Shown: in pieces, positions 57,923 through 60,472 of the stretch | How the letters are laid out: every line of letters starts with the position of its first letter | How positions within the stretch are numbered: the first letter of the stretch is position 1 | Origin: Oscillospiraceae bacterium | GTDB lineage: Bacteria; Bacillota; Clostridia; Oscillospirales; Oscillospiraceae | Direction of reading: 5' to 3' | DNA: 64,000 bases | Assembly: GCA_902767915.1 (NCBI GenBank) | Contig: CACXJE010000007.1 | Coordinates: 80,579-144,578 of the forward strand | Notes under the pieces: generated by a model | Told to the model about the DNA's origin: nothing | The model's database searches: none | What the model saw: only the letters and a program-made list of their open reading frames with translations | Made by a program: the position numbers and the translations under genes

Positions 57923-58468
57923 ATGAGACAGACGAAAATGCTCCATATTTTTGAAATGCTGCTGATTTGCGGCCTGGGTCTCACGCTGATCCTGTATCCG
58001 GGGAAATCCTGGAATACCGCCATGTTTATTTTGGGCATTGCTCTGGCGATCTGCGGCGTAGTTGCGGTGGGGTACTACTACTTTGTGCTCCGGAACAAGC
58101 CCGACGCCCGGCAGAACGGCATTCTGGTCTGCGTGGCCGGCGGCGTTGCCATCATCCTCGGCCTGATTGTGATGATCGCGCCCAACGTTTTCAAAAAGCT
58201 GTTCCAGTCAATTGCCGGCATTCTGGTCGCCTTCAGCGGCATCCTGAATCTGGTCAAGGCCATGGATGTCAAAAAGGCCGAGGCAAACGCCAACGAGCGG
58301 TTCAACGAATGGCCGATCCTGCTGGGTCTGTCTCTCGTCACCATCGCCCTGGGCGTGCTGATCTTTATCAACCCCTTCCGGCGGGAATCCACCCTGGTGG
58401 TTCTGGTGGGCGGCGTATTGATCTACAACGGCGTGCTCGGCATTGTCACCGCCATTCAGGATAAATAA
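57923..58468 (+). CDS. DUF308 (HdeD-like) membrane protein
   Basis: A 181-residue protein with six hydrophobic segments in pairs (near 9-30, 34-54, 68-88, 92-112, 130-150, 155-175), as in DUF308/HdeD. LYPGKSWNTAMFILGIALAICGVVAV and INPFRRESTLVVLVGGVLIYNGVLGIVTAI are typical. The E. coli relative is linked to acid resistance; nothing further can be inferred. Monocistronic between promoter 57832 and terminator 58480. Confidence 0.83.
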   Translation: MRQTKMLHIFEMLLICGLGLTLILYPGKSWNTAMFILGIALAICGVVAVGYYYFVLRNKPDARQNGILVCVAGGVAIILGLIVMIAPNVFKKLFQSIAGILVAFSGILNLVKAMDVKKAEANANERFNEWPILLGLSLVTIALGVLIFINPFRRESTLVVLVGGVLIYNGVLGIVTAIQDK

Positions 58469-58479
58469 GATTCTAATTC

Positions 58480-58521
58480 AAAGGAAGCCCCTGCGTCGCT
58501 GCAGACGCAGGGGCTTCCTTT
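58480..58521. terminator. Bidirectional terminator between DUF308 and the radical SAM maturase
   Basis: AAAGGAAGCCCCTGCGTC and its complement around GCTGCA, serving both converging genes. Confidence 0.9.
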
Positions 58522-58533
58522 GGTTTTAGCGCA

Positions 58534-60021
58534 TCACTCCGCCAGGGGCTTCAGGGGATAGTCCGCCGGCAGGTTGGTGCAGCGGGCCTGGGGCACCGTT
58601 TCCGCCAGGCGGGCCAGGACCCGCTCCACATACTGGCCGAAGAAGAATTCACATCTGTGGCGGTCCATGGCCAAAAAGTCGTTTTCATCAAACTCCAGCG
58701 CCTGGGCCCGGCAGCCGCCCCGGCAGTAGCTCCGATAGGCGCAGGCGGCGCATTCCGGGTTATGGGCCTCGTAGTCCTCCACGGTCCGGTAGGCGCAGCG
58801 GGAGAATTCGGAATCCGTCACCGCCTGCTTCAGGCTCATTTGGGCGAGATCCGCAAAGTTCTTCTGCTGGCCGTCGATTCCCGCAATGGAGATGCAGGGG
58901 GCCACCTTTCCGTCTCCGTTGATGAACAGCGTCCGGTACATGGCCCGGCAAACGCATTCCTCCCCACAGGCGGGGGCACTCTTGACGGCAGAAAACTGAT
59001 AGTCATAGCTGCCCTTGTGCAGGGAGATCATCCGGTTCAGAAACAGGTCAATGGGCATTCCGTCCTCGAAGAAATGGGGAAGGTACTCCAGATAGGTCTC
59101 AAAAACCTCTCTGTGGGTGATGTTGAAATCCTGCCCGTACTGCCGCCATTCCCCGAAATTCAGCATCCGATTGATAATGGCGCTCTGGGCGCCCACGGAG
59201 GCCAGCCGGTTGATGGATTCCCGCAGCACGCCCCTGTTCAGCCGGTGCATGGTGAAGGCGCTCCCGGTTTTGAACCCCCGCTTGGCCAGAAGCTCAAACT
59301 TGCCCATCAGCATCTTTTCCGCGCCTTCCATGCCCCGGAGCCAGTCATGCCAGCCCACGCCGTCAAAGCTCATAAAAAAGGTGGGCTTCAGACCCCGGTC
59401 CTCCAGCTGGTCCAGAAGACGATCATTGACCAGGGCGCCATTGGAGGAGATGCTTTTCAGATGAATCCCGTTTTTCACCAGCTCATCCACGAGCTCCATG
59501 AAATCAGATCGAATCAATGCCTCTCCGCCGGTCATCGAAACCGCCTGCAGGCCGATCTCCGCCATCTCCCGGATGATTCTTTTGCAATCCTCCGTGGAAA
59601 GCTCTCCGAATCTGGCGCCGGGGGCGGAAAGAAAGCAGTGCTTGCACTTGAAATTACACCGGCCGGTCACCGCCCAGTTCGCGCTCAAAATCAGATGATT
59701 GTCGTATTGCCGGAAGCCTTCGGCCGGCGCACCGTAGGCGCAGCGCTCCAGACAGCCCTGCTGCTCCAGCTTTCCCGCGGCAGACCGGATCTGCTCCGGC
59801 ACAATGGGAAGATTGAAATTCACCCTTCCGTTTGCCAGATCGGCGGCCGCTTTCCGCAGGCCCTCAAGGCGGACGTAGGTCAGGCTCCTCCGGTCAACGA
59901 TCGCCGCAGCCAGATCGGACCAGCCCCCATAGGTGCGGTTTGGCGCGATGCGGTAATACAAGGCGTCCGCCGCTTCGGGATGCATGGCCCGGGTTGCCAG
60001 CTCAAGCGCTTTGATGTTCAT
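58534..60021 (-). CDS. Radical SAM/SPASM peptide maturase (RiPP type)
   Basis: A 495-residue enzyme. Residues 45-95 (SLTYVRLEGLRKAAADLANG...QIRSAAGKLEQQGCLERC) have the strand-helix-winged-helix look of a PqqD-like peptide recognition element. The radical SAM site is CNFKCKHC (Cys122, 126, 129) with SMTGGEALIRSDF. The SPASM region holds Cys352, 356, 358, 376, 409, 424, 427, 433, 437 and 457, including CAACAYRSYCRGGC, enough for two auxiliary 4Fe-4S clusters. It lies downstream of a 44-residue peptide gene on the same strand, separated by a hairpin-rich 129-bp spacer. This fits a peptide-modifying enzyme forming C-S, C-C or C-O cross-links; which one is unknown. Confidence 0.88.
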   Translation of the reverse strand: MNIKALELATRAMHPEAADALYYRIAPNRTYGGWSDLAAAIVDRRSLTYVRLEGLRKAAADLANGRVNFNLPIVPEQIRSAAGKLEQQGCLERCAYGAPAEGFRQYDNHLILSANWAVTGRCNFKCKHCFLSAPGARFGELSTEDCKRIIREMAEIGLQAVSMTGGEALIRSDFMELVDELVKNGIHLKSISSNGALVNDRLLDQLEDRGLKPTFFMSFDGVGWHDWLRGMEGAEKMLMGKFELLAKRGFKTGSAFTMHRLNRGVLRESINRLASVGAQSAIINRMLNFGEWRQYGQDFNITHREVFETYLEYLPHFFEDGMPIDLFLNRMISLHKGSYDYQFSAVKSAPACGEECVCRAMYRTLFINGDGKVAPCISIAGIDGQQKNFADLAQMSLKQAVTDSEFSRCAYRTVEDYEAHNPECAACAYRSYCRGGCRAQALEFDENDFLAMDRHRCEFFFGQYVERVLARLAETVPQARCTNLPADYPLKPLAE

Positions 60022-60059
60022 AGTGGACGGTCTCCTTTCCGCAGAGCTCTGCAGAAATT

Positions 60060-60133
60060 AAGAAAGGCCTGAAACTACGTTCAAGCCTTGAATTGTTTTC
60101 TTTAGGGGCCCGGTATGTCCGGGCCCCTACTGC
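60060..60133 (-). promoter_or_regulatory. Double hairpin between peptide and maturase genes
   Basis: GGGGCCCGG-TATGT-CCGGGCCCC (60102-60127) and AAGGCCTGAA...TTCAAGCCTT (60063-60089) lie between the genes, the latter followed on the minus strand by TTAATTTCTG. The first is a CCCTACT-tailed palindrome. Together they may act as a partial terminator, keeping peptide mRNA in excess over enzyme mRNA. Confidence 0.55.
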
Positions 60134-60150
60134 TTGTGTGAAGGATTATC

Positions 60151-60285
60151 TTAGTGGCCGTCGGTGGGGCAGACGTCTTCGGGCTCGCTCACAGTCTCGC
60201 TGGGCTCATCTCCGCCTTCGCCGGACGCAGTCAGAATGTCCTCCAGTTCAAATTCCACCAGGTTCAGGATGGGCTTCTCAAACAT
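60151..60285 (-). CDS. Candidate RiPP precursor peptide, 44 residues
   Basis: The ATG at 60285 follows AAGAAAGGAG. The peptide begins MFEKPILNLVEFELEDILTA (residues 1-20) and continues SGEGGDEPSETVSEPEDVCP then TDGH. Residues 1-19 form a leader of alternating hydrophobic and acidic residues, of the FEKPxLxLxxFxxEDI type often seen beside radical SAM maturases. Residues 21-44 form a very acidic, Gly/Ser/Thr/Pro-rich core with a single Cys39. Thirteen acidic residues oppose one lysine. An upstream in-frame extension to 60411 is rejected as it lacks the ribosome site. The peptide class is not one I can name. Confidence 0.8.
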   Translation of the reverse strand: MFEKPILNLVEFELEDILTASGEGGDEPSETVSEPEDVCPTDGH

Positions 60286-60443
60286 AGTCGCAATCTCCTT
60301 TCTTGGTATTATGTCATCTGCTGGTGCAGATCGGCAACATAGGTATTTCCGTCGGCCCCGGAGGATCGACGGCTTGACAGAATCAAAGCCCATTGAGATG
60401 GGCGTAATCATACTTTTTGACTCTATCCTATTTGTTCGACTTT

Positions 60444-60472
60444 ACTATAGCAAATTCCAACCCGGATTTCAA
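60444..60472 (-). promoter_or_regulatory. Promoter of the peptide-maturase operon
   Basis: Minus strand TTGAAA (60467-60472), 17 bp, TATAGT (60444-60449). An overlapping alternative is TTGCTA (60448-60453), 17 bp, TAGGAT (60425-60430). Either leaves a leader of about 130-155 bases with short palindromes (CCCATCTCAATGGG). Confidence 0.6.

Follow-up and report, generated by a model that had tools for sequence, protein, structure and literature searches.

Organization of the gene pair

The DNA analysed here (the window) is a stretch of 64,000 nucleotides from a gut-type Oscillospiraceae bacterium (contig CACXJE010000007.1 of assembly GCA_902767915.1, positions 80,579 to 144,578). On its minus strand it carries a gene encoding a short precursor peptide (60151..60285), followed by a gene encoding a radical S-adenosylmethionine (SAM)/SPASM maturase (58534..60021). 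The pair belongs to the known kind of ribosomally synthesised and post-translationally modified peptide (RiPP) systems, and what is new is the way in which its leader, predicted recognition element and maturase lineage are combined.

The peptide gene, established by reading of the open reading frame and by the alignment of its relatives, encodes 44 residues plus a stop codon. It is preceded by a good ribosome site on the same strand (60294..60302, GAAAGGAGA), of which AAGAAAGGAGAT is unchanged across three loci; both elements had been recognised in the preliminary description of this DNA. A recount gave the same thirteen acidic residues and single cysteine, at position 39, along with one basic residue. 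The leader comprises residues 1-21 (F2-x-x-P5-x-L7 ... D16-I17 ... A20-S21) and the core residues 22-44, which are rich in Asp, Glu and Thr and have Cys39-Pro-Thr41-Asp42 as their C-terminal stretch. No match to NCBIfam or Pfam was obtained at E 0.1 for this peptide or for 21 other members of the leader family described below.

The maturase gene, assigned from the open reading frame, Pfam, NCBIfam, alignment and structure comparison, encodes 495 residues and exceeds the cut-offs of PF04055 (Radical_SAM, 68 bits against 29.5) and PF13186 (SPASM, 29.1 bits against 21.5). Its CxxxCxxC motif is C122xxxC126xxC129, with the three cysteines invariant in the alignment. The earlier estimate of about ten SPASM cysteines was close, since eleven are found from residue 352 onward. 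Seven of them (358, 376, 424, 427, 433, 437 and 457) are invariant over 29 aligned rows and are spaced 358-x12-G-x4-376, 424-x2-427-x5-433-x3-437 and 457, an arrangement which is the SPASM pattern. SkfB and SuiB are nearly full-length structural matches, with 20% and 13% identity, respectively, over the aligned part. Both are RiPP maturases with an N-terminal recognition element, and their precursors have neither the leader nor the core of the window peptide.

A PqqD-like region had been suspected at the N-terminus of the enzyme and a fold prediction had been proposed as a check. The predicted fold makes such a region probable, with weak scores: residues 21-94 (59740..59961, minus strand) form a predicted RiPP recognition element, the six best Foldseek matches of which are all lasso B1 proteins at E values of 0.028-0.30 (among them TbiB1, 5v1u and 5v1v, and 6jx3). 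Elements of this kind are frequent, though not universal, in radical SAM/SPASM RiPP maturases. In addition, alignment and predicted fold place a helical extension at residues 1-20 (59962..60021, minus strand). This helix of about 20 residues is a feature of the window-type clade; in the alignment most of the other relatives start near YYRL.

Conservation of the pair

The search for the pair across genomes that had been suggested with the preliminary description found the enzyme in three genus genomes out of 23, a total that counts the genome of the window (E 1e-25). The peptide lies directly upstream in all three, in the same gene order and with similar spacing, which bears out the view of the locus as a minimal precursor/maturase pair. 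The leaders can be aligned, and over codons 1-21 the third positions account for 9/14, 13/21 and 8/12 of the substitutions in the three comparisons. The corresponding nonsynonymous rates (dN) are 0.14, 0.24 and 0.12, and the synonymous rates (dS) are 1.15, not computable and 0.91; the leader is thus constrained as a protein. Past residue 21 Cys39 and Thr41 alone are invariant and the remainder of the core is divergent, in an alignment of only three sequences that needs gaps. Each of the three peptides has one core cysteine, within a C-terminal motif C-x-T-[D/E] (CPTD, CGTD and CDTE). Both relatives have an extra cysteine at position 18 of the leader, where the window peptide has Leu.

Beyond the genus, the enzyme was matched in 19 of 400 sampled genomes of the bacterial family (E 1e-25), and a search for related loci returned 57, many of them distant. 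A precursor-like gene was found near 27 of the 32 enzyme relatives examined.

These data bear on the possibility that the two are mere neighbours, the enzyme having some other target and the peptide being a small acidic protein in its own right. We regard this as very improbable: enzyme and peptide occur together in the same order and at similar spacing in all three genomes although the relatives' enzymes are only 52-53% identical to that of the window, most enzyme relatives have a precursor-like gene nearby, and a recognition element is predicted in the maturase itself. What speaks for mere neighbourhood comes from the wider leader family and is weighed below.

The core cysteine and adjacent radical SAM genes

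A profile of 22 peptides found the leader family in 46 of the 400 sampled genomes (E 0.001). The leader pattern is [FY]-x-x-P-x-[LV]...F-x-x-D-[VI]-[IL]-T-[AT]-S, and the cores are acidic. Among 70 such peptides, a core cysteine is present in 12 of the 15 that adjoin a radical SAM gene and in 6 of the 55 others (p 6e-7). Enzymes were recognised by pattern and adjacency was defined as the same strand within at most 1000 nt, and contig ends may hide neighbours; a contig-edge truncated copy of L126 was left out because its core is one residue long. The association persists without the window-type pairs (9/12 against 6/55, p 2e-5) and with a tighter radical SAM pattern that misses several enzymes (7/7 against 11/63, p 2.7e-5). 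As the enzymes fall into three groups the loci are not independent. Grouping by genome and adjacency, with any cysteine counted, gave 10/10 against 3/34, and a core cysteine is present in the peptide closest to the enzyme gene at all 11 radical SAM loci. At loci that had not been seen when the idea was written down (excluding L137, L138 and L139, which had) the counts were 5/7 against 4/36 (p 0.0023), or 4/4 against 2/25 when grouped by genome. Since core cysteines occur mainly where a radical SAM gene adjoins, Cys39 of the window peptide is probably the substrate of the maturase.

Proposed modification

We consider it fairly probable that the pair is a two-gene RiPP system in which a leader bound to the fused element directs the enzyme to link the Cys39 sulfur with a carbon of Asp42 or Thr41. 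Leader residues 1-21 would bind, through the FxxPxL stretch, to the recognition element at the N-terminus of the enzyme. The radical SAM domain, aided by the SPASM iron-sulfur clusters, would then oxidise the C-terminal core, and the Cys39 sulfur would be bonded to a carbon close by, Asp42 and Thr41 being the most likely acceptors. The outcome would be a strongly acidic peptide that is 2 Da lighter and has one small thioether ring close to its end. Any removal of the leader, and any export, would fall to proteins encoded elsewhere. The pair, formerly regarded as unassigned, can now be tested, as it has a predicted handle (FxxPxL together with a lasso-B1-like fused domain), a predicted target in Cys39 and few acceptors.

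An alternative is a RiPP pair in which Thr, Asp or Glu of the acidic core is crosslinked, epimerised or oxidised and Cys39 is incidental or redox-active. In its favour, Asp, Glu and Thr abound in the window core, the structural match SuiB forms a carbon-carbon bond, and a core cysteine is missing from three of the 15 peptides that adjoin a radical SAM gene. This alternative is rather unlikely in our opinion, given that Cys39 and Thr41 are the sole core residues kept in the three peptides and that the core cysteine tracks radical SAM neighbours across the leader family. As to mere neighbourhood, no adjoining radical SAM gene was detected for 55 of the 70 peptides of the leader family, and 29 of the 70 sit behind the gene of a large protein, as might be expected if the peptide were unrelated to the enzyme; the pairing in all three genus genomes that have the enzyme argues otherwise.

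Comparison with known systems

The preliminary description had left the precursor unassigned, and for the maturase none of the 25 NCBIfam matches listed, out of 78, reaches its own cut-off, in support of that view. The pair also lacks the features tested for sactipeptides, lasso peptide clusters, Nif11-class maturase 3, pyrroloquinoline quinone (PQQ) and mycofactocin. In a sactipeptide the core has several cysteines, which are linked to alpha carbons, and this class was rejected as there is one core cysteine in each of the three peptides. The model of Nif11-class radical SAM maturase 3 (TIGR04103) is fourth among the matches listed (E 6e-24), but membership was rejected with 84.4 bits against a cut-off of 725 and with three precursors that do not have a GG leader end.

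Lasso peptide clusters contain genes for a protease (B2) and a cyclase (C). No such genes were found among the adjoining genes read or Pfam-scanned, the rest of the genome not having been searched, and the predicted element of the window is fused to a radical SAM enzyme, unlike lasso B1. The window leader has FEKPIL (FxxPxL), which is near the lasso leader motif [Y/W]xxPx[L/V/I/A/F/Y] (PMC13381572), but has Phe in the first place instead of Tyr or Trp.

In the preliminary description the acidic core with a single cysteine was held to fit neither sactipeptides nor ranthipeptides. That such a core suits no thioether chemistry is not supported, in view of the C-x-T-[D/E] motif kept in all three peptides and of the association of core cysteines with radical SAM genes. 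In addition, the ranthipeptide maturase PapB accepts a single Cys-Xn-Asp with n = 0-6 (incompletely for n = 0 and 6), and also Glu (PMC9413430), so that a lone cysteine with Asp or Glu close by could serve as a thioether site. The PapB family (NF047865) consists of radical SAM/SPASM enzymes acting on a cysteine near Asp or Glu, as proposed for the window enzyme, and its model does not appear in the list of 25 NCBIfam matches out of 78. In ranthipeptides the cysteine sulfur is bonded to a carbon other than the alpha carbon, and C-x-T-[D/E] is no more than compatible with this class.

The fate of the product is a separate matter. No transporter, peptidase, exporter or immunity gene was seen adjoining the pair by reading of the open reading frames and Pfam scanning of the neighbours, in agreement with what had been noted before. 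A C39-type peptidase domain occurs in one of the three genomes bearing the pair, and was therefore rejected as a conserved partner. Together with the strongly acidic core, these observations are in line with an intracellular cofactor or metal-binding peptide, similar to PQQ or mycofactocin, and not a secreted antimicrobial or signal; such a fate would be compatible with the thioether. We think it unlikely, as the cores diverge strongly between species, unlike those of cofactor precursors, and as the relevant NCBIfam equivalogs score far under their cut-offs (PqqE of PQQ, 63.7 bits against 381.35; MftC of mycofactocin, 81.7 bits against 265), for which reason both assignments were rejected.

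Possible leader exchange and the wider FxxP family

The partners of the 32 enzyme relatives, classed by pattern with L070 added separately, are of the GG type (Nif11-like) in 24 cases and of the FxxP type in three (L003, L004 and L074), and none was found in five (L009, L021, L022, L077 and L081). This classing covered neither the fragments L008, L078, L079 and L082 nor the distant loci L023-L065. In a quick tree with midpoint root, the window clade of three has full support and is nested among GG-pairing enzymes. The branch of L074 is long and its position unsure; FxxP requires two changes on this tree, one origin being possible. As GG-leader peptides accompany 24 of the 32 relatives, a leader swap within the maturase lineage is suggested as the simplest reading, with root and long branches leaving room for others. 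If true, recognition handles pass from one RiPP class to another and the leader type used by a maturase family can change, which would bear on the evolution of RiPP pathways and on leader-guided enzyme engineering.

The GG partners of some enzyme relatives (L071:2918-3187, L072:1206-1436 and L012) have cores rich in Cys and Gly, with repeated CxCxxxGGG-like motifs.

The radical SAM enzymes beside leader-family peptides form three groups by blastp: the window type (three loci), a second group with a short N-terminal part (L117, L121, L126 and L169; 30-79% identical) and a third (L135, L146, L160 and L163; 27-65% identical). For the enzyme of L135 the best score was obtained with TIGR04463, and PapB models also matched, below cut-off. 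A literature search of partial coverage, limited to titles and abstract openings, brought up no study that connects this leader family to a radical SAM enzyme. We tentatively suggest that in this peptide family, which is common in the bacterial family, one lasso-like handle may serve several processing systems, including at least three radical SAM groups and an S24-like peptidase/ABC cassette, and that the window may hold a stripped-down form, with a GG-lineage maturase retargeted to this handle to make a single thioether ring. The wider leader family, with 22 members matching neither Pfam nor NCBIfam at E 0.1, would then form a sizeable unmapped group.

Other arrangements were noticed in this family. 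At L131:860-4185 an FxxP peptide without core cysteine is found with an S24-like peptidase, an ABC transporter and a 251-residue protein weakly similar to SynChlorMet ScmC (21.9 bits, cut-off 125), and no radical SAM gene was detected there. The Pfam scan covered L131; L132 and L140 look similar by eye. At L169:247-1002 a single radical SAM gene of 354 residues is preceded by four FxxP peptides in tandem, whose leaders are nearly the same; two of the four cores have a cysteine close to the end and two do not. FxxP peptides often follow, within 100 nt, the gene of a large and probably secreted protein (L135, L121, L128, L118, L140, L132, L147, L154, L163, L166 and others). The 29 upstream genes mentioned above encode at least 400 residues, and three of the 15 peptides beside radical SAM genes are preceded by one. 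Many of these large proteins share by eye a similar tail, for example ALYQYWFTAQQYFSK or AIYNYGASAKNYIS.

Expression signals and surroundings of the pair

A promoter had been described ahead of the peptide gene. The consensus scan did find a promoter-like site, TTGAAA-17-TATAGT (60444..60472, minus strand), with 10 of 12 consensus matches and a TG preceding the second hexamer. The site is weak on its own, since five such sites were found in the surrounding 3-kb stretch against 1.4 expected. By eye, both relatives have hexamers at the same 17-bp spacing ahead of the peptide (TTGCCT/TATAAT and TTGCAT/TATAAT).

The maturase gene starts 129 nt downstream of the peptide gene, and the hairpins noted earlier in this spacer were recovered by folding (-52 kcal/mol, z -5.8, with none of 200 shuffles equally good). 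One stable hairpin lies at 60103..60129 and a second, with a U-rich tail and resembling a terminator or attenuator, at 60064..60089, both on the minus strand. The second, also picked up by the terminator-pattern scan, might hold the peptide in excess over the enzyme; the pattern is not enriched here, with three found against 4.6 expected from shuffles. A GC-rich hairpin directly 3' of the peptide stop is present in both relatives too, where the spacers are less outstanding (z -1.4 and -2.9). Rfam gave no match on the peptide gene or the spacer.

A search of a plasmid collection matched 217 records, none covering 80% of the query at one place. Between the maturase gene and the convergent DUF308 gene there is a perfect 19-bp inverted repeat (58479..58522, unstranded), probably a shared two-way terminator, around which four Rfam matches up to E 1 were obtained, all under the gathering score (58407-58536). 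The neighbouring proteins scanned with Pfam are DUF308, DUF2207 and YihY/BrkB, and MnmA-like and UvrD-like proteins were recognised by eye.
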